Of a stretch of DNA of 64,000 bases, positions 6,047-44,240 are shown piece after piece. The stretch is taken from NCBI GenBank assembly GCA_938074205.1, contig CALJES010000011.1:186001-250000 (forward strand), given 5' to 3'. Source of the DNA: an uncultured bacterium (GTDB lineage Bacteria > Armatimonadota > UBA5829). Position 1 is the stretch's first letter. Each line of letters opens with the position of its first letter. The notes beneath the pieces were generated by a model. That model made no database searches. It was not told where the DNA came from and saw nothing but the letters and a program-made list of their open reading frames with translations. The position numbers were made by a program, and so were the translations under genes.

Positions 6047-7681
6047 ATGCGAGAGTCAATAGCAGAGAGTAAGGAAATTGTAGTTGACAAAGGTGCGTCT
6101 GTGTATGTACGGCACCGTGTGGGACTGCTTATTGCTACCGGATTGCTATTTCTGGTCGTGCAGTGGCCTCAGCTCAAGGAGTGGTGGAAGGTCTGGGAAG
6201 CACCTTATAGCTACTTCTCACACGGACCTCTGGTGCCGTTTATCGCAGCTTATATGGCGTGGGCTAACAGGAAGCGGCTTGCGGCCATGCGGCTTCATTA
6301 CTGGTGGCCTGGGTGCGTGGTCCTACTGGTTTCGGTGGCGGCGCTTGTCACCGGGAACTGGATAGAGTCTGCGTCGGTGCGGGCGGGGGCGTTCCTATTG
6401 ATGATATTTGGTATCCTCCTCTCGCTTTTGGGGCCTACCGCTACTCGGATACTCGCCGTGCCGGTGCTGTTTCTCATCACGATGATTCCTCTCGCTCCCA
6501 GCGTGTTGGATAGCGCAACTGGTCGGTTGCAGATCCAGTCGGCAGCAGTGGCGGCAAAAGTTTTTCAGCTTACTGGACACGAGGCACAGCTTCAGGGCTC
6601 GACCATATACTCTTCTGACCTTCCTGAGCCGCTAATAGTAGGAATCCCCTGTAGCGGACTCAGAACTTTCATCTCATTGACTACGTTCACGATCTTCTTC
6701 ATATATTTAATACGAGCCGCTTGGTGGAAGAAGGTAGTTCTACTCGCTATGGCTTTTCCGCTGAGCATACTAACCAATTCCCTTCGCATAGCAATGATTG
6801 GTTACGTGGGTTTTTGGTCCGGCTCTGCGGAAGCCATGCATAAATTCCACGATTACAGCGGGTATATCGGATTGGCGATATGCTTCGCAATATTATTCGG
6901 AATAGCTAAGTTGATCAAAGCGAACACGTTTGGTCTGCAGGAACCCAAAACCCCGCGTCCGTCGTTTGAAATGGTTACCCGCAGACCGGTTCACGATGCT
7001 CTTGTTGGTGTCCTTGTAATAGTCCTGGTTGGCGGAGCAGGCTTTGCTCAAGCGTACGGCAGTCCGTTGGCGCCGAAGACAAAAGGTCGTATCAACAGGG
7101 CGGCGATACCAATGGCTTTTGGGAAATGGGTTGGTCAGGATGCGGAGATAGACAAACTGACTAGAGAGTGGCTAAAATCCGGCGATTTGTTGCACCGGGT
7201 CTATGTGGAGCATTCAGACTATGGACGTGAAGTGGACGTTTTCATAACGGCTTCCAAAGACCCCGATGCCTTCCACGACCCTCATATGTGCTTGCAGGGC
7301 GGTGGAAGTCCGATATCAGACGACAAGATGATAACCCTCAAGTTTACACGGCCCAAACCCATAGTTGTTCGCGCCACGTTTCTGGAGTCCGCCAACGATT
7401 ATGATCACTTTATAGTCGTCTACTGGTATATGTTGGGAGCCGACAGCATGCCCAGAACGAACGATGTCTGGGCGAGAAATAGGGCTGAGTTGGTTAAGGA
7501 TCTTAAATGGCTAATGCTGAACCCAGGAGCTACTGAGGAATTGAAACGGCGTGTCGAGTCTAGGCAGTTCAAATGGTATAGGTTCTCTACTATGGTCCTG
7601 ACCGATACGGAAACCGACCTGCGGTATCTAAAAGAATTTATTCGGGAGTTCGTGGCACATACAAAGGACTTCGGGGAATGA
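6047..7681 (+). CDS. Exosortase fused to EpsI domain
   Basis: Exosortases are multi-membrane-span cysteine transpeptidases that cut C-terminal sorting tags (PEP-CTERM type) and are usually found beside exopolysaccharide genes; EpsI is their usual partner. Here both are in one 544-residue protein. The N-terminal half has about eight membrane segments, the SYFSHGPLVP motif (residues 55-64) and the predicted catalytic triad: Cys202 in GIPCSGLRTF, Arg247 in NSLRIAMIGY and His268 in HDYSGYIG. The EpsI part starts near residue 310 with a membrane segment and carries the conserved DPHMCLQGGGSPI stretch. The stop overlaps the start of the next gene by 4 bp (ATGA), so translation is probably coupled. 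No PEP-CTERM protein is encoded in this window. The family call is firm; the substrate is unknown. Confidence 0.93.
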   Translation: MRESIAESKEIVVDKGASVYVRHRVGLLIATGLLFLVVQWPQLKEWWKVWEAPYSYFSHGPLVPFIAAYMAWANRKRLAAMRLHYWWPGCVVLLVSVAALVTGNWIESASVRAGAFLLMIFGILLSLLGPTATRILAVPVLFLITMIPLAPSVLDSATGRLQIQSAAVAAKVFQLTGHEAQLQGSTIYSSDLPEPLIVGIPCSGLRTFISLTTFTIFFIYLIRAAWWKKVVLLAMAFPLSILTNSLRIAMIGYVGFWSGSAEAMHKFHDYSGYIGLAICFAILFGIAKLIKANTFGLQEPKTPRPSFEMVTRRPVHDALVGVLVIVLVGGAGFAQAYGSPLAPKTKGRINRAAIPMAFGKWVGQDAEIDKLTREWLKSGDLLHRVYVEHSDYGREVDVFITASKDPDAFHDPHMCLQGGGSPISDDKMITLKFTRPKPIVVRATFLESANDYDHFIVVYWYMLGADSMPRTNDVWARNRAELVKDLKWLMLNPGATEELKRRVESRQFKWYRFSTMVLTDTETDLRYLKEFIREFVAHTKDFGE

Positions 7682-14101: not shown

Positions 14102-15244
14102 GTGTCTGAGACATCGCGATTGATCCGGGCTATAGCTTTATATTTGCCGCAATACCATCCGATCCCGGAAAACGATGAGTGGTGGGGCAAGGGATTCACC
14201 GAATGGACGCATGTGACAAGAGCTAAGCCGCTCTTTCGCGGGCACGTTCAGCCAAAGTTTCCTGCCGACCTTGGTTACTATGATCTTAGAGTGCCCGAGA
14301 CTCGGATTGCGCAGGCTGAGCTGGCTCGCCGTTACGGGATAGAAGGCTTTTGTTATTGGCACTACTGGTTTGCTGGTCGGCGCCTCCTCGAAAGACCTTT
14401 TAACGAAGTGCTCCGGTCGGGGCAGCCCGATTTCCCCTTCTGTCTGGCGTGGGCAAATCACTCGTGGAACGCAGCCTGGATTGGCCTGCCTCAAAAGGTG
14501 TTTCTCGAGCAGACGTACCCAGGCAAGGAAGATTACATTGCTCATTTTGAGGCTTTGCTTCCGGCGTTCTGCGACCCCAGATACATTAAGGTTGATGGCA
14601 AGCCGCTGTTCGTAATATTCCGCCCATCTTTCATCCCAGATCCCGTCGCGTTTACCGATCTCTGGCGGGAGCTGGCCACGAAATCTGGGTTGAATGGCCT
14701 ATACATATTAGGAATGTGCTGCAGTCCGTGGAATAGGAGTCCCTGGCGTCCAGAGGAGTACGGTCTTGATGGCTGTATAACGGTGACCGGCCAGTCCCCG
14801 GAAAGCAGATTTGGGGAGAAGCACGACAAACTAGTCAACAAAAGGACCCTAAAAGAACGGATTCGAATTTTCCTCCGACGGCCTTGTATCGAGAGCTACT
14901 CCGCGCTTGTCGCACACGCTTTTGAACCGAAACCGCTGCCGCGTAATGTCTATCCGTCCGCGCTGTCAAATTGGGACAGCACTCCTCGACACGGAATTCG
15001 CGGAACAGTGCTCACCGGATGTTGTCCGGACGCATTCAGACGGCACCTCTTGGACGCGGCCCGATGCGTTATTGATCGAGAATGGGATCACAGGCTTGTG
15101 TTCATAAAATCATGGAACGAATGGGCTGAGGGCAACTACCTAGAACCTGATGCCCAATTTGGTCACGGTTGGCTTGAGGCGGTCAAATCCGTAGTTTCCA
15201 ATGAGTGCGGTGACTTGGAAACCGCGGACAGCAAAAACGCCTAG
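14102..15244 (+). CDS. WbsX-like protein (GH99-like TIM barrel)
   Basis: Member of the WbsX family, found in O-antigen and rhamnan loci and structurally related to GH99 endo-mannosidases. It is soluble, with no signal peptide. It opens with ALYLPQYHPIPENDEWWGKG, then FTEWTHVTRAKPLFRGH, then YGIEGFCYWHYWFAGRRLLE and LAWANHSWNAAW, and ends with SWNEWAEGNYLEPD. All are hallmark segments of this family. Starts with GTG behind a GGAGG site. The family is often annotated as a glycosyltransferase, but its fold is that of a hydrolase, so it may be a transglycosylase or a glycosyltransferase-like enzyme. Reaction not proven for the family. Confidence 0.9.
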   Translation: MSETSRLIRAIALYLPQYHPIPENDEWWGKGFTEWTHVTRAKPLFRGHVQPKFPADLGYYDLRVPETRIAQAELARRYGIEGFCYWHYWFAGRRLLERPFNEVLRSGQPDFPFCLAWANHSWNAAWIGLPQKVFLEQTYPGKEDYIAHFEALLPAFCDPRYIKVDGKPLFVIFRPSFIPDPVAFTDLWRELATKSGLNGLYILGMCCSPWNRSPWRPEEYGLDGCITVTGQSPESRFGEKHDKLVNKRTLKERIRIFLRRPCIESYSALVAHAFEPKPLPRNVYPSALSNWDSTPRHGIRGTVLTGCCPDAFRRHLLDAARCVIDREWDHRLVFIKSWNEWAEGNYLEPDAQFGHGWLEAVKSVVSNECGDLETADSKNA

Positions 15245-15538
15245 TTTGAGCTTGTCATTCGCTGCTTTTGTTTGGGATAAGTTGGGACTAAAGTTCGGCA
15301 TCCAGTTAGTTACAGCGTGGCGTCGGGATGCCACTTGAAATCTCAGTCAAACTACCAAAAGGACAAACGCGGCTATCTCTCCTTAAACCATATTCGCGTC
15401 ACGCAATTAACCGTACAATGTTAGGGTTCATTTGTTTCGTATAGCCGAATTGCTCGTATGGCATAACCAATTAAGGACTGATTGTGTTTTCAAGGTTCAG
15501 CATCGTTTCGAGTCAATGGAAAGGAGTTGCTTGCGCAA
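15245..15538 (+). other. Non-coding gap with a weak promoter-like element
   Basis: About 290 bases with no supported gene. A TACAAT hexamer at 15414-15419 is a possible -10 box, but no good -35 lies at the right distance. An AAGGAG site at 15521-15526 belongs to the next gene. No hairpin terminator follows the WbsX-like gene. Confidence 0.4.
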
Positions 15539-17884
15539 ATGATTTTTGTGCACCGCGGCGGGTCGTGCATAGCCTCGTTGGGTGCGATTGGTCGAATAGG
15601 GGTGTTAATCCTGGCGTTGATATGCGCGGGTTCCTGTTTTGCCTCAGCCGTACGCGTAGATCTTTTGGAAGGGTTGGGAGATTTCGAGCGTGTAGCTCCG
15701 GTTACTGAGTGGGAGTCGTATTATCGACTGCCGACCTTTGACAATCCGGACTACGACTTCGATTCGAACTCTCTCTACTTTACGGAAAGCAGAGGCACCT
15801 ATTCTTACCGTTCTGGAGTCAGTGCTCCGACAGTTGGAGATAGGATTGCTATGGGTTGGAGACGTGTTACGGGAGGCACCATAAACCCCGGCAAAAACAT
15901 TGTCTATGACGTGGTCGCTGGTGGAATCGGTGGTACCAGTTGTCAATACATGGCGATGAAAGACCTGGGCGAAGGGCTGAGTGGGCGCGTTGAGCTGGAG
16001 AGCCTGCGCCACTACGTTGCAAGGCTCCGACAGGGTTTGTCGCCCGGGGATGAGGTGATATTTGCTGTTGAGTATATTAGGATGAGCGATTATGAAGGGA
16101 TCTCAGGTTTAAGTTACCGCATTTGCATACAGACGAACCTAGGAGTTACCTCCCAGCGACTTTATCCCTCGACCAGCCCTTTTTCCGCGGAAGTTAGAAC
16201 CACGATAGATGAGAGCGTGACTTTTGTATCTGCGAAAGTGATTGTAGAGGGAACCGTTCCTACAGGACGTCAGCCGGGTATTTTCGTTGACGGTGCTCAC
16301 CTGTACATAAGGCGTGCCGGTTCAGAAAACTATGAGACTCGAGAGAAGCCCTTAGCCAAAACGAGGTCCGTCAACACAGTTGGCGTGCTTTACAATAATG
16401 CTCTTGAAGATGCCCTTTCAGTTGCCTCCAACAGTGATTATGTGGTCCTGGGTATGGCTTCAGACTATGCATGGGCGAAGCATCTTAAGTCGCTCAATCC
16501 CAACATAAAACTGTACACATACCAAAACTCTCGCCCTACCAAGCAGGGCACAAAAGATCCCTATTTTTCAAACAGTGCTATTGGCTATTACTTCGCATCT
16601 ACTCAACACCCTGAATGGCTATTCTTACGAAACGAGCAAATTCCCGGCGAGTATGCATTCTGCCCCGAATGGCCCTCGGAGTATTGGGCGCGATTGGGGC
16701 TTGATGACTATTCGAGTACGTGGGCGACCAGGGCTCTCGCCCGTGTCCAGTCCGCCCAATGCGATGGTGTATTCGTTGACAACCTGAGTCCTGCAAACAA
16801 GGTTACGGATTCAAACGGCAACTTGCTCTACCCCCAGCTAGACGTTTGGCAGGTTCAGAAGTTCTTACGCACAATATGCCAGGCTTTCGGGTCGGTAGGT
16901 CTGGAGGTTATGGGCAACGCTTGTGGTTTCGACCTGAATTCCGGATCGGGTAGCGCCATATTTGATCCTTTCTGGCAGCCCGTTGAGCCCTACACAGGCC
17001 CTGATTACACTGCCAATTCGCCGGAAACCACCGTGAAGCACATATTTCAAGAATGGTCATTTGTTCGGCCGATAGGTGGCAAGATGGTTTACGACAAGGG
17101 TTTCTGGATGGTTTGCATTCGCAACATGGAAGCGGTCAAACGATGGAACCAGACAATGGCTCAGAGGCAGCTAGATCCTCGTTTATACAAGTACTTACAC
17201 GTTTATGTAGATCTCTCCGCTGCTACCTATGAAAGCGCGTTTGGGCCCGACGGTTGGCGGCGTTTTGCATTATGCAGCTATCTACTAGCACAGAACGAAT
17301 GGACCACTTTTGGCTGGAGCGCGGCAAGTCTGAGCGCATTATGCTCGCTTGATCTGGGTTTCACCGCATTAATGGGAGAGGCGTTGGGCGATCATCAGTC
17401 CTATAATGGAGATGAATACGTCCGTATCAGAAAGTACGGCCGCCCGTCTGATGGAACCGTGTTGGCGGTGGTAGTGGTTAACGCCAATCCTGACAACGCC
17501 CGCACTTACGTTGCGGAATTTGACGGTGTAGACGATCTGGGCCAGCAAGTCAGCAAAGGCCAGCAAATCACATTGCCTCCTTGTAGTGGTAGAGTTTTTC
17601 TCAAACAGACAGGTTCGGTGGTAGTACGTGTGCGAACATCCGCTCAAAACGTTAAGCCAGGACAAACTGTGACAGTTAGCGTGGATTACACATGTACGGG
17701 CGATGCAGAAGCACATAATGTCGTGATAAAATCGCAGGTCCCTATGCAAATGAACTATGTACTCGGTAGCGCAGAAAAGTCGGGTGGGAAATATGATCCT
17801 AACACCAACACGGTTTCCTGGGTTATTGGGACAGTAGCTCCGGGTCAATCCGGAACTCGGACTTTCCAGGCAGTCGTGAAATAA
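15539..17884 (+). CDS. Secreted glycoside-hydrolase-like protein (GHL15-type barrel) with DUF11-like tail
   Basis: Exported protein. The frame is open from a TTG at 15482, but ATG 15539 gives a clean signal peptide (hydrophobic core IGVLILALICAGSCFASA) and lies 12 bases after GGAG, so I take that start. Roughly residues 45-290 form a jelly-roll-like N-terminal region. Then comes a TIM-barrel-like domain with the segments NTVGVLYNNALEDAL, LNPNIKLYTYQNSRPT, CDGVFVDNLSP (a likely catalytic or substrate-binding Asp) and GLEVMGNACGFD. This pattern resembles hypothetical glycosyl hydrolase family 15 and, distantly, GH114-type alpha-galactosaminidases. The last 80 residues (VVVRVRTSAQNVKPGQTVTV onward) form a DUF11/CARDB-like beta-sandwich. 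Being inside the synthesis locus and next to a deacetylase suggests polymer trimming. The family is not firmly assignable. Confidence 0.72.
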   Translation: MIFVHRGGSCIASLGAIGRIGVLILALICAGSCFASAVRVDLLEGLGDFERVAPVTEWESYYRLPTFDNPDYDFDSNSLYFTESRGTYSYRSGVSAPTVGDRIAMGWRRVTGGTINPGKNIVYDVVAGGIGGTSCQYMAMKDLGEGLSGRVELESLRHYVARLRQGLSPGDEVIFAVEYIRMSDYEGISGLSYRICIQTNLGVTSQRLYPSTSPFSAEVRTTIDESVTFVSAKVIVEGTVPTGRQPGIFVDGAHLYIRRAGSENYETREKPLAKTRSVNTVGVLYNNALEDALSVASNSDYVVLGMASDYAWAKHLKSLNPNIKLYTYQNSRPTKQGTKDPYFSNSAIGYYFASTQHPEWLFLRNEQIPGEYAFCPEWPSEYWARLGLDDYSSTWATRALARVQSAQCDGVFVDNLSPANKVTDSNGNLLYPQLDVWQVQKFLRTICQAFGSVGLEVMGNACGFDLNSGSGSAIFDPFWQPVEPYTGPDYTANSPETTVKHIFQEWSFVRPIGGKMVYDKGFWMVCIRNMEAVKRWNQTMAQRQLDPRLYKYLHVYVDLSAATYESAFGPDGWRRFALCSYLLAQNEWTTFGWSAASLSALCSLDLGFTALMGEALGDHQSYNGDEYVRIRKYGRPSDGTVLAVVVVNANPDNARTYVAEFDGVDDLGQQVSKGQQITLPPCSGRVFLKQTGSVVVRVRTSAQNVKPGQTVTVSVDYTCTGDAEAHNVVIKSQVPMQMNYVLGSAEKSGGKYDPNTNTVSWVIGTVAPGQSGTRTFQAVVK

Positions 17885-18010
17885 TTGTGATTGTATGCCT
17901 TATAATTACGTGGGCTTTTCGAGCCAGGGCTAGGCCAGAGGGGTTGAGACGCTGTTACTGTTTGCTGTTGTGTTACACGGAATTGTGTCCTGTGGGTCGC
18001 ACTAGCTTAG

Positions 18011-18038
18011 AATTGACAATTGACAATTGACAATTGAT
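18011..18038. repeat. Tandem heptamer array (AATTGAC)x3 + AATTGAT
   Basis: Four consecutive heptamers, the last with one base changed. Each full unit regenerates both CAATTG and a perfect -35 hexamer TTGACA (18013, 18020 and 18027). The array lies in the 256-bp gap before the deacetylase gene. It could arise by slippage. Confidence 0.9.
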
Positions 18039-18055
18039 AGTTGTTAGTTTAAACT
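18027..18055 (+). promoter_or_regulatory. Candidate sigma70 promoter inside the heptamer array
   Basis: The last TTGACA of the array (18027-18032) is followed after 17 bp by TAAACT (18050-18055), a 4/6 match to TATAAT. This would give a transcript start near 18062 and a leader of about 80 bases before the deacetylase gene. The -35 is perfect and the -10 mediocre, so the call rests on spacing. Confidence 0.42.
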
Positions 18056-18140
18056 GAAATTGACTAAGAAACCCTCGCTCTCGCTAGAGAGCCGAATTTC
18101 AGGCGAAGAGAACCATACAGCCAGGTTTTTGTAATCTTGT

Positions 18141-20276
18141 ATGCGAAACTGCAAGAAAGCGGGCTTACTTGACAATCAGGCGCGTGTAGTTGCGTTTTTA
18201 CTTCTTGCTGCTAGCTTTCTGACGTTGGCCACGAGAAGTGCGTTCGCTTCCGTCGTCTTCGACAACACCCCGATGGTGGTTCTTCGTATAGACGATGGCA
18301 GAGCGTCCTGGCGCCAGCCCTTCAATGGGCTTGGAGGGTTGAGTGCCCTTGATTATTGCAAGCTAAAGCAAGTCCCCATAACGTGGGCTGTCGTTTCGGA
18401 TTGGGCAAGCAATAAGTATAATTGGAATCCTCCCCCGCTCAGTTGGTCGGAGTTGATAGACTACGTGAACACTGCGGGTGGAGAACTGGCGAGTCATTCG
18501 GTTCGCCACCAACCGGAAAATTCCCAGTCGGACTACATAAGAGAGCTCATAAATAGTAAAGCGGAAATAGAGGCGAAAGCTCCAGGTTTTTTGTGTAAAA
18601 CATTCATTCAACCTGGTGTGTGGACAGGTGAGGCCTACCTTGATTCCTTCCAAAAGTTAGACCTACCTATTGCCGCCGCCATTAAGGCAAACTACTCCCA
18701 GAGTATGGCATATGTCGGTGGTGGTTGGACTATTGGCGGGGTTTACCATCGCTTTGGCTTTAGCTCGAACATTTGTCTCGATCGGGGTAGCTGTCCGACT
18801 CTAGCTGCGATTTTCGCTACGCTGGACGTGGTAGCTGCTACCCCAGGTTGTATCTTTGTGCTTTACGGTCACGGTATACAGGAAGCAGGCGGACAGAACA
18901 GAGGCGACATATGTGCCGACGTTCTGAAGGCCGTTGTGGACTATTTGGTAAACCTGCGTGATCAAGGAAAAGTGCGTCTTGTTTCGCTGAGCGAAGCGTG
19001 TTCGACCTCTGTTGATCCATCGGTGAATCGATTGGCTGATGGCGACTTGGAGGTTGTCAAGCCTGGAGCGCTAAATCCGATGGGACCGGTGACTCTTGTT
19101 GGCAACGCGTATATTGCCGATCACGGCGGGATGGATGATTCTCGGTGTGCCGTATTGCCAGGGGGGCCGCTATCTAAAGTTCACTGGCGTAGCTGGCTTG
19201 CTCCGGGCAGATATAAAATCAGTTGGTGGCAAAAACTGGATTCTGGTTCAACTGCCGCACCGGTATTTGTGGGAATCTCTGCCTATGGCAATGGAAACCC
19301 TGCTACTTGGCCTGTTCGTTACAAAACTGTGAGGAATGTAGAATCGGGAGTTTGGGAGCATAAAGAACTATATGCGCTGCTGCCTGAGAGCACGCCGGAC
19401 ACAGGAATATTTTTCCAACAATCAAATACCAGCTCATCATTCTGCATAGATCGTGTGGCGTTAACCCTAGAGCCTTTAGATTCCAGCCATGCCCCTACAG
19501 AAACGCGGGTCTCGGCTGTGTGTGGTCAGTACGTGGTTTCCTGGAATACACCAGCTAATACCGAAATCACTCGCGTAGTTGTCAGATACGATACTCAGGC
19601 GTGTCCAACAAGCCCCGCTGATGGCGTAGCTTTTGGTGAGGTTGAGGCCATCAGTGGAACCCGTCAGAGTGTAAGTGGAAACGTTGTTATGTCGCCGAGC
19701 GGCTTCGTTTACTTCAGCGTGTTCGCTGTGAAGTCTGACGGGACATACACCGGTCCCGACCTTGCCTTCATCGCATGTGACACGACGCCGCCGAGTCAGC
19801 CGGTAGTCAGTATTGGGTTTACCAACGATGGTCGAATGCGTGCAACTTGGATGGTTTCGGATGCTGAGTCCGGAGTATGCGAGTACTCGTACGGACTAGG
19901 CACGTCGCGGGCATTTCCAAACTTGACCGGCTGGATCAACTCTTCAGAGACAGAAGCTGTTTTTTCTGAGCTCCCTACGGGGACGTTTTACCTGTTTGTA
20001 AAAGCAAGAAATAATGTTGGTCTGTGGTCGGAAGTCTCATCTGTGCAGATCTCAACTGCAGAGGCCGTGTTTTCCACGGCTGACGGTGTGCAGGTGGTAG
20101 TCACCGGCATGGTAACAGCTAGGTTTGCGGACTGCTTCTACATAAGGCTCGAAGGTTGCCCGCGCGGCTTGAAAATAATCGGAAACTCCGCTGCCTACGA
20201 GGAAGGAACAAATGTTACTGTCAGCGGCCTGCTGACAACCATAGATGGAGAACGTGCTGTTATAGTTTCGCCGTAA
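18141..20276 (+). CDS. Secreted polysaccharide deacetylase (NodB-like) with C-terminal sandwich and OB-like domains
   Basis: Exported protein with a signal peptide ending near SAFA-SVV. The NodB/CE4 domain occupies about residues 40-290: the metal-binding Asp pair in RIDDG (D51-D52), the HSVRH motif (H119, H123), a modified third motif (CKTFIQPGVW) and LYGHG near the end. It therefore looks catalytically competent for removing N- or O-acetyl groups. Next is a jelly-roll-like region (HWRSWLAPGRYKISWWQ), then FN3-like repeats (VSAVCGQYVVSWNTPAN; MRATWMVSDAESG) and a final OB-fold-like stretch (VVVTGMVTARF to the end). No clear ribosome-binding site precedes ATG 18141. Located among nucleotide-sugar genes and after a secreted hydrolase-like gene, it probably modifies the polymer after export. 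Confidence 0.82.
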   Translation: MRNCKKAGLLDNQARVVAFLLLAASFLTLATRSAFASVVFDNTPMVVLRIDDGRASWRQPFNGLGGLSALDYCKLKQVPITWAVVSDWASNKYNWNPPPLSWSELIDYVNTAGGELASHSVRHQPENSQSDYIRELINSKAEIEAKAPGFLCKTFIQPGVWTGEAYLDSFQKLDLPIAAAIKANYSQSMAYVGGGWTIGGVYHRFGFSSNICLDRGSCPTLAAIFATLDVVAATPGCIFVLYGHGIQEAGGQNRGDICADVLKAVVDYLVNLRDQGKVRLVSLSEACSTSVDPSVNRLADGDLEVVKPGALNPMGPVTLVGNAYIADHGGMDDSRCAVLPGGPLSKVHWRSWLAPGRYKISWWQKLDSGSTAAPVFVGISAYGNGNPATWPVRYKTVRNVESGVWEHKELYALLPESTPDTGIFFQQSNTSSSFCIDRVALTLEPLDSSHAPTETRVSAVCGQYVVSWNTPANTEITRVVVRYDTQACPTSPADGVAFGEVEAISGTRQSVSGNVVMSPSGFVYFSVFAVKSDGTYTGPDLAFIACDTTPPSQPVVSIGFTNDGRMRATWMVSDAESGVCEYSYGLGTSRAFPNLTGWINSSETEAVFSELPTGTFYLFVKARNNVGLWSEVSSVQISTAEAVFSTADGVQVVVTGMVTARFADCFYIRLEGCPRGLKIIGNSAAYEEGTNVTVSGLLTTIDGERAVIVSP

Positions 20277-20667
20277 GTCTTTCGGAGGCAGACTGCTGTT
20301 CCTCCAGTTGACAGATGGCACAAGCGGTTTTACAAGCGGTTTTCCCACAAAGTTTCTTCTCTTCCTCGGACTTTTCACTACAAGAAACTTGCTCACTCTG
20401 AAATGCAGTATATGCTTTTAGCGGTTCTTTACCGATAAGAATGTGTGAGCGCTGAGTGTAGCTAGTTCGGCTCCGCGTTGACTTTAAACTCGAATGCAGC
20501 TTTCGAACCACTGACTCGCGTTTTTCAGAAGGTTGGCCGCCACATGATATAATCAAGGGCAGTCATTTTGCGAACTGCTGCAGATCCGGTCTTTGCTTGA
20601 CTCGCAATCCGAGCACGCTTTCTTTGATCAAAATGGGATTGGTGCGTTCTAGGGAGGCTTGAGAAAA
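20277..20667 (+). other. Non-coding gap with tandem 12-mer and weak promoter elements
   Basis: A 391-bp stretch with no supported gene. It holds a perfect tandem repeat of ACAAGCGGTTTT at 20320-20343. TTGACA at 20308-20313 is followed 17 bp later by TACAAG (20331-20336), a possible promoter whose -10 lies in that repeat. A perfect TATAAT at 20548-20553 lacks a good -35. A minus-strand open frame of 98 codons here is rich in Ser/Glu/Lys/Cys, has no recognisable domain or ribosome-binding site, and was not accepted. The AGGGAGG at 20651-20657 belongs to the next gene. Confidence 0.5.
20320..20343. repeat. Tandem 12-mer ACAAGCGGTTTT x2
   Basis: Two perfect adjacent copies in the gap between the deacetylase and dehydrogenase genes. 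No third copy was noticed in the gap. Confidence 0.85.
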
Positions 20668-22002
20668 GTGAAAAGTCCTACTAGTAGCTCACAAACCAGA
20701 TCGTGGGAAAATACGCTAGAGAGAATCAAAACCGGGACGGCTAGAGTTGCTGTGATCGGTTTGGGATACGTGGGATTACCATTGGCAACGGCATTCGCGC
20801 GCAAGGGATTTCACGTGATCGGGTTCGATGTTGACAGCGAAAAAGTGTCTGCCCTTACAGATGGCAGGTCGTACGTTCTAGACGTACCATCGGACACTGT
20901 TGCAGAAGTTGTCGGTTCCGGTGCTTTCGAGCCTACAAGTGATGCACAAGCGCTCCGCGGAGCAGACGCAATTGTTATATGTGTGCCAACGCCATTCACT
21001 GTCGATAGAGCTCCGGACCTCAGCTACATCGAGTCGGCAGCAAAAACCATAGCATCCGTTCTCGAACCGCCTTGTCTGATCGTCTTGGAGAGTACCAGCT
21101 ATCCCGGAACTACTGAGGAGCTGCTTGTTCCCATTCTCGAATCGTCGGGAAGAAAGCTGCACGAAGATTTTGAGGTGGCTTTTTCACCGGAACGCGTGGA
21201 CCCCGGCAACAAACGTTACCATATCGAGAATACGCCGAAAGTTGTCGGGGGGTTGGGTAACAGGGCTGGCGATCTTGCTTGCGCGTTGTACGGGTCTGTT
21301 GTGGACAAGGTCGTGCGCGTGGACTCACCGCGAGACGCCGAGATGGCAAAGCTAATAGAGAATACTTTCCGTCAGGTAAACATTGCCTTAGTTAACGAGC
21401 TTGCTTTAATTGCCAAACGTTTGGGCGTTAACATATGGAAGGCTATTGAAGCTGCGGCATCCAAACCGTTTGGCTATATGCCTTTCTATCCAGGTCCAGG
21501 GGTCGGCGGTCATTGCATTCCAATAGATCCGCACTATCTTGCCTGGAAAGCCCGCGAGCTGGGCTGCGAGATCAGTTTCATCGAGCTTGCCGAGCGTATT
21601 AATCAGAGCATGCCGATACACGTTGTGCGGCTAACAGAAGAAGCTGTGGCAATGTCGGGCAAGAAGCTGGCCGAAGCGAAAGTGCTGATTCTCGGGGTCT
21701 CATATAAACGCGATATTGATGACCTTCGAGAGTCGCCAGCTTTGGCGATAATAGAGCAATTGCAGAAAGAAGGCGCCGAGATTTCCTACCACGACCCTTA
21801 TGTTCCGGTGTATCGGCGGGGGAATATCGAACTGAAATCTGTAGACCTGACGCCGGATACTATCGAGTCAGCTGACTGCGTACTACTAGTCACCGATCAT
21901 TCAATAATCGACAAAGATCTTGTAGCGCGACATGCGAAAGCCATTGTTGATACCAGAAACGCATTTGCCAACTACCAACAGGACAACATAATCCGGTTGT
22001 AG
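20668..22002 (+). CDS. UDP-N-acetylglucosamine 6-dehydrogenase (WbpA/TviB-like)
   Basis: Predicted to oxidise UDP-GlcNAc at C6 to UDP-GlcNAcA, the entry step to amino-uronic acids. The Rossmann motif is VIGLGYVGLPLATAFARKGF. The catalytic Cys is in GPGVGGHCIPIDPHYLAWKA, a segment typical of the WbpA/TviB branch, and the C-terminal domain begins LGVSYKRDIDDLRESPAL. I prefer GTG 20668 over TTG 20659: AGGGAGG at 20651-20657 is 1 base from the TTG and 10 from the GTG. The next gene is a TviC/WbpP-like epimerase, as in Vi-antigen type clusters, and WlbA/B/C-like genes lie 8-12 kb downstream. Together these could lead to UDP-GalNAcA or UDP-2,3-diacetamido-glucuronate. The branch assignment is by motif recognition only. 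Confidence 0.88.
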   Translation: MKSPTSSSQTRSWENTLERIKTGTARVAVIGLGYVGLPLATAFARKGFHVIGFDVDSEKVSALTDGRSYVLDVPSDTVAEVVGSGAFEPTSDAQALRGADAIVICVPTPFTVDRAPDLSYIESAAKTIASVLEPPCLIVLESTSYPGTTEELLVPILESSGRKLHEDFEVAFSPERVDPGNKRYHIENTPKVVGGLGNRAGDLACALYGSVVDKVVRVDSPRDAEMAKLIENTFRQVNIALVNELALIAKRLGVNIWKAIEAAASKPFGYMPFYPGPGVGGHCIPIDPHYLAWKARELGCEISFIELAERINQSMPIHVVRLTEEAVAMSGKKLAEAKVLILGVSYKRDIDDLRESPALAIIEQLQKEGAEISYHDPYVPVYRRGNIELKSVDLTPDTIESADCVLLVTDHSIIDKDLVARHAKAIVDTRNAFANYQQDNIIRL

Positions 22003-22032: not shown

Positions 22033-22980
22033 ATGAAAGTTCTCGTCACTGGTGGTGCAGGGTTCATCGGATCGCATCTGGTCGAATCTCTTCTCAGATT
22101 GGGATATGAGGTTCGTGTTATGGACAATTTATCCACAGGCCGCCTAGAAAACCTAAAAGCAGTGCGCGACGAGGTTGAGTTTCTAGAATCAGACGTGAGG
22201 GACTTCGCGCAGTGCAAGTTGGCGTGTAAGGGGATAGAGAAGGTTTGGCACTTGGGTGCTTTGGGTTCCGTTCCGCGGTCAGTGGCAGACCCGCTTACAA
22301 CCCACGAAGTGAATCTTACTGGCACGCTCAACATGCTTTTGGCAGCTCGAGATGCCGGTGTGGAACGTTTCGTGTTCGCATCGTCCAGTTCGGTTTACGG
22401 TGCGAATCCTGAACTGCCGAGGGAGGAAAACCAGCACCCGATGCCAATGTCTCCGTACGCAAATACCAAACTTGCGGCTGAAACCTATGTAAGGCAGTTT
22501 GCGCATCTCTACGGATTGCAAACTGTGTCTCTTCGTTACTTCAACGTCTACGGACCCAGGCAGGACCCAACCAGCCAGTACGCAGCCGTAGTTCCTCGTT
22601 TCTTTTCGGCGCTGTTATCTGGCAAGCGTCCGGTGATCTATGGTGACGGGGAACAAACACGTGAGTTCACTTTTGTAGACGACTGCGTTGAGGCGACCAT
22701 CGCAGCCGGCTTGGTTGAGCCGACTCGGATAGTTGGCGAGAATTTCAATATTGCGGCAGGCAATCCTCATTCCGTAAATGAGCTGTTGAGCATCGTACAG
22801 AGAGTTTTGGGGACGGAGATCGAACCGGAGTACGCACCTCCCAGACCAGGCGACGTTAAGTGCTCAGACGCTTGTGTCGAAAAGGCAGCCGAAAAACTGG
22901 GATTCCGAGCAAAATGGTCTTTAGAAGACGGCATTGCCAAGACGGCAGAATGGTATTTGTCCAAGGAGGCTCGAGTTTAG
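22033..22980 (+). CDS. UDP-sugar 4-epimerase, extended SDR (WbpP/TviC-like)
   Basis: NAD-dependent extended short-chain dehydrogenase that inverts C4 of a UDP-sugar. It has the nucleotide motif TGGAGFIGSHL (residues 6-16), the Ser of ASSSSVYG, the catalytic YANTK (in MSPYANTKLAAE) and the substrate-binding stretches RYFNVYGPRQDP and YGDGEQTREFTFVDDC. The last of these is a signature of the WbpP/TviC group acting on UDP-GlcNAc or UDP-GlcNAcA. An AGGAG site precedes the ATG. It lies 30 bp after the WbpA/TviB-like dehydrogenase, the same pair order as in Vi antigen synthesis. UDP-glucose 4-epimerase activity cannot be excluded. Confidence 0.88.
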   Translation: MKVLVTGGAGFIGSHLVESLLRLGYEVRVMDNLSTGRLENLKAVRDEVEFLESDVRDFAQCKLACKGIEKVWHLGALGSVPRSVADPLTTHEVNLTGTLNMLLAARDAGVERFVFASSSSVYGANPELPREENQHPMPMSPYANTKLAAETYVRQFAHLYGLQTVSLRYFNVYGPRQDPTSQYAAVVPRFFSALLSGKRPVIYGDGEQTREFTFVDDCVEATIAAGLVEPTRIVGENFNIAAGNPHSVNELLSIVQRVLGTEIEPEYAPPRPGDVKCSDACVEKAAEKLGFRAKWSLEDGIAKTAEWYLSKEARV

Positions 22981-23832
22981 TTGAGTAGGTCAATGGTATC
23001 TGAGGTTGTATACGAGCCCGATAACTGTCTCAGACAGGGTTATAAGGGATTGCTCAGGGATGTCTTTAGAGACGTATGGGACAACCGCTGGCTGACGATG
23101 CAAATCCTGCGTCGGGACATTTTTGCGGTTTACAGGCAGTCAGCAGCTGGACTGCTTTGGCTCTTCATTAACCCGCTTTTGATGATAGGAACTTTCGTGA
23201 TCCTGGGGAGGTCCCAGGTGTTTAACTTGGGTGATGTTCGTGCTCCGTACCCGATATATGCCGTACTAGGTATGTCTCTGTGGCAGTTGTTCTCAGTAGG
23301 ACTGACCTCAAGCGCGAACTCGCTGGTCGCGGCAGGCGCGATGATTGCTAAGATCAACTTTTCCAAAAAGTCTCTCGTGATTGCATCCCTAGGCAGTTCG
23401 GCGTTGGCGTTTCTTATCCAATTTGCAATAGTCGTGTTTCTGTTTATCGGATATCGCGTCACTCCCACCTTCTTCATCGTGTTGGTGCCGTTACTGGCGA
23501 TACCGATGGCAGTATTAACTTTGGGAGTAGGCTTCATAGTTTCTCTTTTTAACGCGGTCTTGCGGGACGTGGGTGTGGCAATACCGGTGCTCATACAATT
23601 TCTGTTGCTCTTGACACCTGTCCTATACGCGCCAAGGGCTGGAATCATAGGAAAGTTGACCCATTACAATCCGCTTTACTATTTGGTTTCAGTGCCGCGA
23701 GATCTGGTATTGCGAGGGCACTCCGACAACCTGGTAGGCTATCTTGCGGCTTCGGCTCTGGCGTTTATCGTTTTTCTGTTCTGTCTAACGACGTTTCATC
23801 TTACTGAAACACGTATAGCTGAGAGGGTGTAG
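22981..23832 (+). CDS. wzm: ABC-2 type polysaccharide/polyol transporter permease (Wzm-like)
   Basis: Membrane half of an ABC exporter that moves lipid-linked polysaccharide across the inner membrane. It has an amphipathic N-terminus (LRDVFRDVWDNRWLTMQILRRDIFAVYRQS) and six hydrophobic segments, with the family stretch PVLYAPRAGIIGKLTHYNPL between segments 4 and 5. Start: TTG 22981 sits directly after the stop of the epimerase and 11 bases behind AAGGAGG; ATG 22993 is the alternative. The ATP-binding partner follows after 66 bp. Wzm/Wzt exporters normally serve Wzy-independent pathways, so their presence with Wza, Wzc and a Wzy-like protein is unusual. Confidence 0.92.
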   Translation: MSRSMVSEVVYEPDNCLRQGYKGLLRDVFRDVWDNRWLTMQILRRDIFAVYRQSAAGLLWLFINPLLMIGTFVILGRSQVFNLGDVRAPYPIYAVLGMSLWQLFSVGLTSSANSLVAAGAMIAKINFSKKSLVIASLGSSALAFLIQFAIVVFLFIGYRVTPTFFIVLVPLLAIPMAVLTLGVGFIVSLFNAVLRDVGVAIPVLIQFLLLLTPVLYAPRAGIIGKLTHYNPLYYLVSVPRDLVLRGHSDNLVGYLAASALAFIVFLFCLTTFHLTETRIAERV

Positions 23833-23898
23833 GTTTAGACTTCCCTTTCAATTTCATCGTTTCTAGTCTGCTAGGAAGTCGAATTCGGGTGTTGGTTT

Positions 23899-25194
23899 AT
23901 GCAGAGTGATGTGCTTGTTTCAGTTGAGCACGTTTCGAAGAAATACTGCAAATCTATCAAGCGAAGCATGGCTTATGCAGTTACGGATATCACGAGAAAT
24001 CTGCTGCGGATGAGTTCGAAGCCAGACCGCTTGCGACCCGCTGAGTTTTGGGCGGTGGACGACGTGTCGTTTGAGATGCGTCGAGGCGAGAGCGTGGGGC
24101 TTGTTGGACCGAACGGTTCAGGCAAGACTACACTCCTGCAGCTGATAAACGGTATATTCTGGCCCGACAAAGGGAGAGTAACCGTAAGGGGCAGAGTCGG
24201 AGCTCTAATTGCTGTGGGCGCCGGGTTTCATCCTATGCTCACCGGCAGGGAGAACATATACGTCAACGCCGCGATATTGGGCATGACCAAGGAGGAGGTC
24301 CAAAAGAAGTTTGATGCCATCGTAGAGTTTGCGGACATAGGCGATTTTCTTGATACGCCTGTAAAGTACTACTCGAGCGGCATGTTCGTAAGGCTCGGAT
24401 TTGCAGTCGCAGCCCACTGCGAACCAGATATTTTGCTTGTCGACGAAGTCTTAGCTGTCGGGGATGCGAGATTCCAGAGGAAATGCTTGAACCGTCTGAC
24501 GGAACTGCGCAAACAAGGTGTCAGCTTCATTCTGGTAAGCCACAACATGCAGTCGGTCGAAGGAGTTGCAACCAGAGGCATTGCTCTCAGACAAGGTAAA
24601 GTCGTATACGAGGGAGATGTCAGAGAGGCAATTGCAAAGTATGAGTTGATGATGCTGAGGGAGGGAACCGTAACCGAAGATTCCTCGGAGCAGGTTTGGG
24701 ACGATCCCAATGCTCTAGCGTTGGTGAAGAGATATCCAGGCTACGGAACCGACGAAATACGTGTAGAGAAGATGCATGTTTTGAATTCTGACGGAATCCC
24801 CAAGAAGCTGTTCTATTCTGAAGATTCACTGACGGTAGCTGCTACTGTTACGAGCGATGTTAGCGATAAGGTTCGCTTGCTCGTAAATTTCATTAACGAG
24901 CGTGGCGTCATATGTTTAGGGACAACTCAAGTAGTCGACGTAGAACCAGGGCGCTGGCGCATTCTTCTCAGGTTTGAGCCAATACAGCTGTCCACGGGTC
25001 GATACAAGCTTACATTTCACGTGTTTGATTCCTCGTTTACAAACCCATACAGCAATGGCCACTATGGTTGGTTCGAGGTCGAGAAAAGACATGCAGTGAA
25101 CGTGCCAGGCGTGAACTCGCCACTATGTTGGACAGAGCCGGAAGTTGCCGTGGTTAGTGCTGAAGAGGAGATTCGCGGTGGCGAAAATAGATAG
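23899..25194 (+). CDS. wzt: ABC exporter ATP-binding protein with C-terminal carbohydrate-binding domain (Wzt-like)
   Basis: ATPase subunit partnering the Wzm-like permease. The Walker A is GPNGSGKT (residues 70-77), the signature YSSGMFVRLGFAVA and the Walker B ILLVDEVLAVGD. There is an extra segment before Walker A (residues 20-50), as is normal for Wzt/TagH. About 170 residues follow the ATPase domain (from YPGYGTDEIRVEKM). They match the Wzt C-terminal beta-sandwich that recognises the non-reducing end of the finished glycan, so export is probably coupled to a specific chain terminus. The 3' end overlaps the next gene by 17 bp. The ribosome-binding site is weak. Confidence 0.93.
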   Translation: MQSDVLVSVEHVSKKYCKSIKRSMAYAVTDITRNLLRMSSKPDRLRPAEFWAVDDVSFEMRRGESVGLVGPNGSGKTTLLQLINGIFWPDKGRVTVRGRVGALIAVGAGFHPMLTGRENIYVNAAILGMTKEEVQKKFDAIVEFADIGDFLDTPVKYYSSGMFVRLGFAVAAHCEPDILLVDEVLAVGDARFQRKCLNRLTELRKQGVSFILVSHNMQSVEGVATRGIALRQGKVVYEGDVREAIAKYELMMLREGTVTEDSSEQVWDDPNALALVKRYPGYGTDEIRVEKMHVLNSDGIPKKLFYSEDSLTVAATVTSDVSDKVRLLVNFINERGVICLGTTQVVDVEPGRWRILLRFEPIQLSTGRYKLTFHVFDSSFTNPYSNGHYGWFEVEKRHAVNVPGVNSPLCWTEPEVAVVSAEEEIRGGENR

Positions 25195-41234: not shown

Positions 41235-41609
41235 AATATATCACCTCTTTTCCAAAGAAAAAACCTCGTGCAAAGCGAATAGTCAAACGTGGTTGTTAGG
41301 TGAAGTCGAAAGAAGTGCAATATATCATCTACCCAACTGCACGCTTTGCGGCAGCTGAGCATTGCAGCACGAGCTGCGTCCGTTCAACACTCCCGTCTAA
41401 CCGCATTTTATCCCGAATAGCCGCGATTGTCAATTGTTCCTTCTGTGAGTTGCTGGTATCTATCCCATCATACTACATCCAGCAGGAATTCCTGTTTATT
41501 CCGGATAATCAATTTATCGGACTACGGAGTGTGCTACTGTAGTCCGAATAGAACTTAGTCGTTCCCACTATTGCCGCTGGGAAGCAAGGTCTATTGTTTA
41601 GGAGACGAT
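41235..41609. promoter_or_regulatory. Divergent intergenic region with two dyads
   Basis: A 375-bp divergent gap between the prepilin and the CBM9/GH123-like gene, with no gene seen in it. Near its right end are two inverted repeats: GATAA-TCAAT-TTATC (41504-41518) and CGGACTAC-N13-GTAGTCCG (41518-41546), sharing one base. Neither is followed by a U-run. They lie 64-106 bp before the start of the + operon, an operator-like position. The GGAG at 41601 is the ribosome-binding site of the downstream gene. No clear -35/-10 pair was identified. Confidence 0.45.
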
Positions 41610-44240
41610 ATGAACCGACTATCCTACCTGGTTTTTTTGTGTGTCTTCGCGAGTTTGGGGTGCTGCGCAGAAAATTCCTTTACCCTTACGAGAGATCCGG
41701 TGGCTTTGTGCTCCAGGGTTGCGACAGCGCCGGTGATCGATGGGCGATTGGATGAACAGTGTTGGAAAAAGCCTCCTTCTATAACGCAATTTGTACAGTC
41801 TAGGAGCAGCGAATCGCTCCAATGTCAAACGCACGTGTTACTAGCCTACAACGAAAAGGGTCTATTCGTTGCATTCAGGTGCTTTGAGCCTGAGATCTCG
41901 AAGCTCGTAACGGGTCAGCAGTTCGTTTGGCGAAATGACTCAGTTGAAATATTGATCGACGCAGACCGCGACCGCGCGGGCTACATTCAACTGATTGGAG
42001 ATGTAACCGGAGCCACGTTCCAGCAATTGGCTGGGATACCCGCTGAAACGCCGAATCAGCAGTGGACCGCAGACTGGAAGTTCGCCGCCGCACGGGGGTT
42101 GCACGAGTGGACAGCAGAGGTATTCGTGCCTGCTGAGGCTCTTCGGGTTCGGATGCGTGATGGCACCGTGATCCGCGCCAACTTTGCACGAAACCGCAAG
42201 CCTGTGCTGGAATCCAGTTCCTGGACACGGCGTACGGGTGAGATCTGCCAGGCTTTGTACTTCGGAAATGTTGTTCTAGGTTCGAAACTCTCTGATGCAA
42301 ATGCTTCCTTAGAACAGTTTCGCTTCGTGAGATATGAAGAGGGTCGCGCTGAGCTCGTAATTAGCAGCAGCGCCCGAAAAACAACCGTTACACCGCGCAT
42401 AAAAATCTTTCCCGAAAGGGGTGTCAAAGATCATATTCTACCTCCTGTTTCGATAGAGAGTAGCCGTGTGCGTAAACTCCCCATCAAAATTCACCTTCCC
42501 GACGAATATAGGTTTGGTCTGGAGATATGGGGTCAAGCTAGCGGGAAAGACGAGACCAAGTTCCTAGGAAGCTACCTTGTAACACGTGCACCCTCGATCC
42601 CGCGTATATATGGAGCTGTCTTGGCTTCACGTGAATGGGGAACGGTTTGGGAGGCGAATGCCACTTGCAAGGTACTGCCGAATTCTCCAATTGCAGAGGA
42701 CAAGGCCCAGGTCATTCGTGTGTTCGCGGCAAGAAACGAATTCGAACCTTTCCAATTGGTTATTACGCCTCGGCGCGACCTACGCAATCTTACGGCTGCA
42801 GTAACAGATCTCGTGGGACCGGCAAGAGTATCGAAGGAGCAGATTAGCGTAAGGCTTGTTGAGACTGTGCCAGTTACTGTACCAACGAGCCCTGACTGTG
42901 CACCAGGCGACTATCCAGATCCCTTAGTTCCATTCGAGTCCACTACGGCGAAAGCCGGTCGAAATACAGCGTTGTGGTTTACGATCCGCGTCTTGCCTAA
43001 TGTTCTTGCCGGTGATTACCGCGGGAGTGTGCGCATTAGCGCAGACGGTATAGCTCCTGTTGAGATTCCTATTCAGCTTAGGGTTTGGGATTTCACGCTG
43101 CCTGATGTCAGTCGTTTGCGGACTGCCTATGGATGCGACTACGAAGCCATATGCCGCTGGCACGGCGTCTCCTCGTTGGAAGATAAACGTAAGATTGCCA
43201 CTCTCACAAATCTGAACTTCATCGAGCACAGGGTGTGCCCTATTAACCCATTGCCGTTCTGGTCGTTCGATGACGATATCGTTGACGGCAAGATGGTGAT
43301 CAGGTGGGATGAATACGATCAAGGAGCTGAACTATTTTTACCCAAAATGAATTCCTTTAACTTACCGGGCGCGTTCATGAGCTCCGTCAGGAATAAACGC
43401 GCGAAGGAGCCAGGCTATGCTGAGGAGAAGAAAGAGTTCCTGCAATTGGTCGCTGCGCATCTCAAGGAAAAAGGCTGGTTTGAGAAAGGCTACAACTACA
43501 TATTCGATGAGCCGAACCCAGATCAGTATGGCGACATCGTTCGTGAGGCTGAGATATGGCATGCGGCAGACCCACAGTTCAAGATACTTGTTACAGAGCA
43601 ACCGGAGCCCGAACTCTTTGGAGCCATCAATATTTGGGTGCCAGTTCTTGACGCGTATATACGTCCCATTTGTCAGTCGCGGCAGTCGTTTGGTGAAGAA
43701 GTCTGGTGGTACGTTTGCTGCGGCCCGCATCACCCTTACCCGAACAACTTTATCGATTATCCGGCCATAGACCATAGGATTCTTCATTGGATGAATTGGA
43801 AATACGGTGTCACAGGCGTACTTTATTGGCAGACGACGTTCTGGCGCAGAGATCCCTGGTTGTATCCTATGAACGATGAAGGGGGAAAGAATCTCGGTAA
43901 TGGTGACGGTACGCTTTTGTATCCGCATGTCCGAAAACCTTCTGACAAACCGCTCATTCAAGGTCCACTCGACTCAATTAGATGGGAAATGATACGCGAG
44001 GGAATAGAAGACTACGATTACTTAGTGATGCTCAGCGATGCAATAAAAGCCGCACAGGCGCGAGGGACTGACAAGAAGCTCATAACCGCTGCAATGAATG
44101 CTTTGTCAGAGGTCAACGCTGTAGTGAGAAGTGTTACCGACTACGAGAAGGACCCGCGCCGACTTGGCGCTGTACGGGTGAAGGTTGCTAGCGCCCTAGA
44201 GTCACTGCTTTGTAGTAGTCGCAATATGAGTGAGAAATAG
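41610..44240 (+). CDS. Secreted CBM9-like + GH123-like (DUF4091) protein
   Basis: Exported protein of about 876 residues. ATG 41610 follows GGAG closely and opens a signal peptide (MNRLSYLVFLCVFASLGCC), possibly a weak lipoprotein signal. Residues 30-230 form a CBM9/DOMON-like carbohydrate-binding sandwich (PVIDGRLDEQCWKKPPSITQ; NDSVEILIDADRDRAGYIQL). After a linking beta-rich region the C-terminal half is a DUF4091 barrel related to GH123 N-acetylgalactosaminidases. It contains GYNYIFDEPNPDQYG with a likely catalytic Asp-Glu pair, then GVTGVLYWQTTFW and the terminal SIRWEMIREGIEDYDYLVML. It heads a five-gene + operon and overlaps the next gene by 11 bp. The domain calls are good, the substrate is unknown; N-acetylated hexosamine is a guess from the family. 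Confidence 0.85.
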   Translation: MNRLSYLVFLCVFASLGCCAENSFTLTRDPVALCSRVATAPVIDGRLDEQCWKKPPSITQFVQSRSSESLQCQTHVLLAYNEKGLFVAFRCFEPEISKLVTGQQFVWRNDSVEILIDADRDRAGYIQLIGDVTGATFQQLAGIPAETPNQQWTADWKFAAARGLHEWTAEVFVPAEALRVRMRDGTVIRANFARNRKPVLESSSWTRRTGEICQALYFGNVVLGSKLSDANASLEQFRFVRYEEGRAELVISSSARKTTVTPRIKIFPERGVKDHILPPVSIESSRVRKLPIKIHLPDEYRFGLEIWGQASGKDETKFLGSYLVTRAPSIPRIYGAVLASREWGTVWEANATCKVLPNSPIAEDKAQVIRVFAARNEFEPFQLVITPRRDLRNLTAAVTDLVGPARVSKEQISVRLVETVPVTVPTSPDCAPGDYPDPLVPFESTTAKAGRNTALWFTIRVLPNVLAGDYRGSVRISADGIAPVEIPIQLRVWDFTLPDVSRLRTAYGCDYEAICRWHGVSSLEDKRKIATLTNLNFIEHRVCPINPLPFWSFDDDIVDGKMVIRWDEYDQGAELFLPKMNSFNLPGAFMSSVRNKRAKEPGYAEEKKEFLQLVAAHLKEKGWFEKGYNYIFDEPNPDQYGDIVREAEIWHAADPQFKILVTEQPEPELFGAINIWVPVLDAYIRPICQSRQSFGEEVWWYVCCGPHHPYPNNFIDYPAIDHRILHWMNWKYGVTGVLYWQTTFWRRDPWLYPMNDEGGKNLGNGDGTLLYPHVRKPSDKPLIQGPLDSIRWEMIREGIEDYDYLVMLSDAIKAAQARGTDKKLITAAMNALSEVNAVVRSVTDYEKDPRRLGAVRVKVASALESLLCSSRNMSEK

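Follow-up and report, generated by a model that had tools for sequence, protein, structure and literature searches.

In the canonical PNAG system, PgaB carries a CE4 deacetylase and a GH153 domain fused in one chain. In A. fumigatus, agd3 and ega3 are adjacent genes; in 30 of the 35 bacterial species of one tree, agd3 is within or close to operons that encode carbohydrate-active enzymes, with GH114 co-occurring consistently (PMC7229062). The PelA deacetylase is active without the Arg of motif 3, and a His two residues before the catalytic base has been proposed as its replacement (PMC12022489). Among the hydrolases, an equivalent Asp/Glu pair has been described for GH114, GH135, GH166, and GH191 (PMC12054363); in the GH168 enzyme FunA, D206 and E264 are reported to be essential (PMC10778895, PMC11943901), and the GH168 enzymes of known substrate cleave sulfated fucans rather than amino sugars (PMC11943901). 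Here, we describe a hydrolase-like barrel gene and a deacetylase-like gene in an exopolysaccharide (EPS) locus of an Armatimonadota genome (3.02 Mb, 97.9% complete); "the window" refers to the whole stretch of 64,000 nucleotides that was analyzed.

The gene pair in its EPS locus

The barrel and the deacetylase are encoded by two separate ORFs, with the stop codon of gene 1 ending at 17884 and gene 2 starting at 18141. For gene 1, we used the ATG at 15539 as the start, while the mechanically called ORF opens earlier, at a TTG at 15482. A WbsX gene lies on one side of the pair and a gene for a UDP-sugar dehydrogenase on the other, all inside a long run of EPS genes:

14102 to 15244, + strand: WbsX-family (PF14307) gene, upstream of the pair (E = 1.3e-132)
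15539 to 17884, + strand: gene 1, predicted exported GHL15 barrel protein of 781 aa (ORF; PF14885, E = 1.5e-11; 81% orthologue in congener G002)
18141 to 20276, + strand: gene 2, predicted exported NodB-fold deacetylase-like protein of 711 aa (ORF; 71% orthologue in congener G002)
20659 to 22002, + strand: UDP-sugar dehydrogenase of the UDP-HexNAc dehydrogenase type (NCBIfam, below all equivalog cut-offs)
22033 to 22980, + strand: epimerase, best NCBIfam match TviC, below cut-off
22981 to 25194, + strand: ABC-2 transporter-like (weak permease match) and Wzt-type ABC ATPase genes of a polymer exporter

The locus contains genes for export and assembly (Wza, Wzc, exosortase, Wzy_C, and Wzt), sugar genes (glycosyltransferases, two UDP-sugar dehydrogenases, an epimerase, and DegT), as well as genes for a hexapeptide acetyltransferase and a polyprenyl-phosphate sugar transferase. 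Because the flanking dehydrogenase and epimerase always scored below the equivalog cut-offs, substrate names for these enzymes are not warranted. In the window and in G002, no importer adjoins the pair, and both genes lie within the same-strand EPS run. An earlier note on this DNA had described two exported proteins, a barrel and a deacetylase, encoded side by side in an EPS locus. The ORFs agree with this description, and the N-termini of both proteins, as read by eye, resemble signal peptides.

Across the 20 kb compared, every gene of G002 is in the same order as in the window. Between the two congeners, dN is 0.115 for gene 1 and 0.182 for gene 2; dS is saturated, and dN/dS is therefore not given. 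Based on these values, both genes look constrained. Scans for promoters (7 matches versus 5.0 in shuffled sequences, s.d. 2.5) and terminators (9 versus 6.0, s.d. 2.5) were both within approximately 1 s.d. of the shuffles. Short tandem TTGACAA repeats in the intergenic gap at 18010 to 18045 are the source of two overlapping promoter-like matches; they are not kept as an array in the congener. Elsewhere in the window, the EPS locus encodes an exosortase with DUF3485 (6047 to 7681; XrtD/XrtW-like, below cut-off), and a GH123-like protein with a CBM9 domain is encoded downstream of the locus (41571 to 44240).

Folds and candidate active sites of the two proteins

From its N- to its C-terminus, the gene 1 protein has a predicted signal peptide, a beta domain, the GHL15 TIM barrel, and a DUF11 domain:

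15644 to 16318, + strand: N-terminal beta-rich domain, approximately residues 36 to 260, without Pfam match; CBM-like by secondary structure only
16358 to 17608, + strand: TIM barrel with C-terminal beta extension, residues 274 to 690, GH168/GHL15-like by structure comparison
16778 to 16780, + strand: Asp414 codon, end of beta4 (strand 410 to 414), aligning with the catalytic-position Asp of GH168
17051 to 17053, + strand: Glu505 codon, just after beta6 (strand 501 to 504), invariant in 11 of 11 members
17624 to 17878, + strand: C-terminal DUF11 domain, residues 696 to 780 (PF01345, E = 1.9e-8)

GHL15 (PF14885) scored 45.2 bits against a gathering cut-off of 27 and covers only residues 317 to 424, whereas GH114 (PF03537) reached 16.2 of the 27 bits needed, and nothing in the genome matched GH114 at E ≤ 0.001. 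No barrel relative was found in the viral collection searched. Other large proteins of the phylum have segments that match this DUF11 domain.

For the fold comparison, we used Foldseek and VIA-align 2 on an AlphaFold2 model built from five sequences (mean pLDDT 64.3). Most of the barrel was modelled at 70 to 90, with lower values in loops, and the N-terminal beta domain at low confidence (mostly <60 before residue 170); the numbering of beta-strands is our own count. The top matches were all 13 GH168-type entries (Z 24.1 to 25.3 over 299 to 315 residues at 3.1 to 3.8 Å, with 13 to 19% identity in the structural alignments), and the similarity extends over the entire barrel together with the C-terminal sheet. 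These were followed by GH191 (Z 16.8), the PelA hydrolase 5tcb (GH166; 15.8), Ega3 6oj1 (15.6), and fungal GH114 (15.5), which were interspersed with further barrel families of comparable Z. Thus, GH168 is nearer to the barrel than GH191, GH166, or GH114 by approximately 8 Z units, and the modelled barrel is structurally nearest to GH168 endo-fucanases and not specifically PelA- or GH114-like. Of the GHL15/GH114-like barrel put forward in the earlier note, the GHL15 assignment holds by its Pfam score, while in structure the model is closer to GH168 than to GH114.

A profile search against the GH168-type chains found the same chains with marginal E values (0.0016 to 0.021), and its alignment pairs D409 and D414 of the barrel with their DGxFxD motif. 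FunA D206 aligned directly to D414, while FunA E264 was matched to E505 by position after beta6 only. A D171A entry among the GH168 matches would, judged from the numbering, fit the same Asp if its chain carries 36 extra N-terminal residues. Y328, D409, D414, N460, and E505 (window numbering) are invariant in the alignment of 11 barrels; the alignment of full-length proteins had nine members. Y328 and N460 are likely counterparts of Y115 and N234, which are highly conserved in GH168. A third GH168 residue, N117, is not conserved in the gene 1 barrel family, which suggests a different substrate. Together, the alignments suggest that Asp414 and Glu505 occupy the catalytic positions of the GH168/GH114/GH166/GH191 superfamily. 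A barrel without a catalytic pocket, which the earlier note had named as evidence against its reading, is not what the invariant D414 and E505 indicate at the level of residues.

The gene 2 protein consists of a predicted signal peptide, a NodB-type deacetylase core, an Fn3 domain, and an OB-like tail:

18261 to 19010, + strand: deacetylase core, approximately residues 41 to 290 (PF10096, E = 4.7e-4; PF01522, E = 0.0087; both below cut-off)
18285 to 18296, + strand: motif 1 as R49-I-D51-D52, its Arg preceding the base by two residues (all four homologues keep R49 and D52, three keep D51)
18495 to 18509, + strand: H119-S-V-R-H123 metal-binding motif (both His invariant in 4 of 4)
18609 to 18611, + strand: Q157 at the motif-3 position, Arg in canonical enzymes (Q, Q, E, and Q in the four homologues)
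18870 to 18872, + strand: H244, candidate catalytic acid of motif 5 (invariant in 4 of 4)
19770 to 20048, + strand: Fn3/Y_Y_Y-like domain, approximately residues 544 to 636 (PF07495, E = 3.3e-4, below cut-off)
20073 to 20273, + strand: C-terminal OB-like tail, approximately residues 645 to 711, fold named by eye only

The protein scored below the cut-offs of both DUF2334 (PF10096; 20.2 versus 26 bits) and Polysacc_deac_1 (PF01522; 16.5 versus 23.1 bits), and PF01522 matched three of the four homologues at E ≤ 0.1 (best 2.7e-4). The deacetylase had been called intact in the earlier note. This holds for the metal triad and the catalytic His (D52, H119, H123, and H244), which are invariant in all four homologues down to 32% identity, but not for the base D51, which is Gly in the G003 copy, nor for motif 3, which reads F-[IL]-[QE]-P-G-x-W in the four homologues, without the Arg usual in CE4. 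The combination of R-x-[D/E]-D in motif 1 with no Arg in motif 3 was present in gene 2 and in all five DUF2334 exemplars of the phylum that we inspected, while the one classical-looking protein inspected (L126 in G121) has TFDD in motif 1. These comparisons argue for a deacetylase center of the DUF2334 type rather than of the standard NodB/CE4 type. R49 lies at the same offset from the base as His526 of PelA and, by analogy, may stand in for the missing Arg of motif 3. A structure model of the deacetylase from two sequences had a pLDDT of 36.7 and was unusable; its profile searched against the PDB gave Fn3 matches and one deacetylase at an E of only 0.91.

The OB-like tail is also present on many other proteins of the phylum, in which related Fn3-like repeats are numerous, and in the window the C-terminal part (C11:248460-248927) of a 1,318-aa protein encoded at 59310 to 63266 matches the Fn3/OB-like tail of gene 2. 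This tail may be a shared surface module.

Occurrence of the pair in the phylum

Using the deacetylase core as the query against 291 genomes of the phylum, we found matches in 7 genomes, 4 of them strong (the window genome G000, G002, G014, and G003) and 3 weak (G011, G007, and G121). Each of the four strong homologues directly follows, on the same strand, a close barrel gene, with gaps of 101 to 259 bp that depend on the start codon chosen; with gaps of this size, the two genes may, but need not, be co-transcribed. Near the weak match in G011, there was no barrel gene in the stretch examined, and G007 and G121 were not, among the matches listed, in the 111 of 291 genomes that match GHL15 as a Pfam family. 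Conversely, the barrel profile identified 14 strong places in 9 genomes, of which 4 are paired and 10 are without a deacetylase. In a tree of 15 barrels, the paired ones fall into two distinct clades, both supported (G000 with G002, and G003 with G014), and the paired or unpaired state requires at least two changes, as expected if the pair arose twice or if an old pair was later lost in some lineages. The hydrolase-deacetylase pairing is thus real and recurrent, but optional. The earlier note had held that two genes never co-occurring in relatives would speak against its reading; the pair is present in four genomes of two clades, yet most close barrel genes stand without a deacetylase.

The surroundings of the pair differ outside the genus. 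A placement next to WbpA/TviB-like genes, which the earlier note had proposed to check, is conserved in the two congeners but not beyond. In G003, the pair is at a contig end, and the same contig carries exosortase, FemAB-like, hexapeptide, and glycosyltransferase genes. In G014, a hexapeptide gene lies upstream of the pair and genes for beta-helix proteins downstream, followed at a greater distance by GHMP-kinase, GT2, and DegT genes. Unpaired barrel genes are part of EPS loci in G008 and G011 (C117) and adjoin UDP-sugar dehydrogenase/epimerase genes in G004, whereas those of G005 (with a GH5-like neighbor), G009, and G011 (C142, beside BipA) are not within an EPS locus. A wider contig scan with one pattern returned four loci, apparently C139 of G002, C117 and C60 of G011, and C222 of G005. 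Some GHL15 barrels (L070, L071, and L073, in G011, G008, and G004) are fused behind a long, right-handed beta-helix-like repeat region and Fn3, and the exosortase/EPS locus of G003 contains, with the pair, a second polysaccharide deacetylase gene (L063:4055-5305; PF01522, E = 1.2e-4).

We also asked whether GHL15 and DUF2334 are generally paired throughout the phylum and rejected this idea: among the matches listed, only C387 of G048 had both within 20 kb (approximately 16 kb apart). This comparison is weak, as rows were compared by eye and PF10096 misses gene 2 of the window itself.

Proposed function of the pair and comparison with known systems

We give a probability of roughly 0.5 to the reading that the two genes constitute an optional two-enzyme editing module for the locus's own exopolysaccharide, the presumed substrate. 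Both proteins would be secreted across the inner membrane, as their N-termini suggest. The barrel would act as a retaining endo-hydrolase that cuts an alpha-linked backbone using Asp414 and Glu505, while the deacetylase would bind a metal via D52, H119, and H123 and remove N-acetyl groups with D51 as the base and H244 as the acid, R49 presumably filling the role of the motif-3 Arg as His526 may in PelA. Judging from the UDP-HexNAc dehydrogenase, epimerase, acetyltransferase, and aminotransferase genes of the locus, the polymer would consist of N-acetylated amino sugars or amino-uronic acids. Partial de-N-acetylation could give it positive charge and promote surface adhesion, and cleavage could set its length or release it. 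In favor of the module are the pairing of all four strong homologues, its presence in two barrel clades, the EPS context, the invariant D414 and E505, the GH168 match at Z ~25, the metal triad, the amino-sugar genes, and the constraint on both genes. Against it are the Gly in place of D51 in G003, the 10 of 14 barrels that are unpaired, the barrels outside EPS loci, the gaps between the two genes, and the sulfated fucans that the GH168 enzymes of known substrate cleave.

Alternatively, the barrel could be a feeding or defense hydrolase for foreign alpha-linked, fucan-like polysaccharides, with the deacetylase helping to degrade the same polymer and the EPS setting being incidental. We regard this as possible but unlikely. 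The best structural relatives of the barrel are indeed polysaccharide-degrading fucanases, some of them from Planctomycetes; several close barrel genes are not in an EPS locus, and one of these adjoins a GH5-like gene; and the GH123-like gene at 41571 lies further downstream. However, in the window and G002 the pair is inside a one-strand EPS run with no adjoining importer, and G008 and G011 likewise keep the barrel gene in EPS loci. It is doubtful that one or both proteins are instead non-enzymatic binding or scaffold proteins that hold EPS at the surface via their beta, DUF11, Fn3, and OB-like domains. The many accessory domains, the recurrence of the same C-terminal domains on many other proteins, the absence of the motif-3 Arg from all four deacetylases, and the absence of the base from one would fit such a role, but D414 and E505 are invariant in all 11 barrels and the metal triad in all four deacetylases, and PelA is described as active without that Arg (PMC12022489). 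That the pair processes plain poly-alpha-1,4-GalNAc like PelA or Ega3/Agd3 is improbable, since the adjacency of agd3 and ega3, the GH114 genes that accompany bacterial agd3 (PMC7229062), and the GH191, GH166, and GH114 matches (Z 15.5 to 16.8, among other barrels) are set against the absence of any PelG (PF16933) match in the one genome searched, the subthreshold GH114 score, the occurrence in the locus of Wzy, Wza/Wzc, and ABC genes in place of a synthase system, and the closer fit of GH168 by some 8 Z units.

The idea of a split PelA- or PgaB-like system, raised in the earlier note, survives in that a separate barrel and deacetylase are present in an EPS locus; homologous descent as a split PelA or PgaB was rejected, given the better structural fit to GH168 and the lack of a PelG match in the one genome searched. 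For the editing module, a chain of amino-uronic acids resembling Vi is an appealing guess at the substrate because TviB/TviC-like genes follow the pair directly in the two congeners, with the caveat that these matches fall below cut-off and the other barrel-bearing EPS loci differ. The full proposal combines an alpha-endo-hydrolase of the GHL15/GH168-like kind with a DUF2334-type deacetylase whose activating Arg has shifted to a place beside the base, the two acting jointly on a Vi-like N-acetylated amino-uronic-acid polymer of an exosortase/ABC-type EPS locus; it is tentative and on balance rather unlikely.

Our analyses link GHL15, an uncharacterised barrel family, to the structurally known GH168, provide residues to test, and offer a proposal for the new position of the Arg that DUF2334-type deacetylases lack in motif 3. 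In the literature searched, we found no prior report of DUF2334 as a deacetylase. If correct, the full proposal would give a first function, as far as the literature was searched, to this GHL15 branch and to DUF2334. If the two genes do form an editing module, the combination of a hydrolase with a deacetylase would be a solution that has recurred with different enzyme families as building blocks, and Armatimonadota polymers would become easier to predict from sequence.

As in PgaB, a deacetylase and a barrel would be used together in EPS processing, although in PgaB they are fused in one protein. The GH168 endo-fucanases (FunA/Fun168A and PbFucA) are the best structural match (Z 24 to 25), with the catalytic Asp position the same by alignment, but the sequence scores are marginal, and gene 1 is multidomain and in a different genetic setting. 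The gene 2 protein resembles DUF2334 (PF10096) proteins in its R-x-[DE]-D motif 1, its HxxxH, and its motif 3 without Arg, as in the five exemplars, yet it scores below the family cut-off. PelA (GH166 and CE21) has the same predicted pair of activities, a barrel with an Asp/Glu catalytic pair, and a deacetylase that has no motif-3 Arg and carries a basic residue two positions ahead of the base (PMC12022489); unlike the two genes here, it is one protein of the pel system, and in this genome no PelG was found and the barrel fold is closer to GH168. Agd3 (CE18) and Ega3 (GH114), in the galactosaminogalactan cluster and in bacterial operons, are likewise a secreted deacetylase and an alpha-endo-hydrolase encoded by separate, adjacent genes in an EPS cluster (PMC7229062), while here the hydrolase is GHL15/GH168-like, the deacetylase DUF2334-like, and the synthesis and export genes are different. 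Separate, adjacent hydrolase and deacetylase genes for EPS are thus already known from ega3/agd3, and here they are built from other enzyme families.
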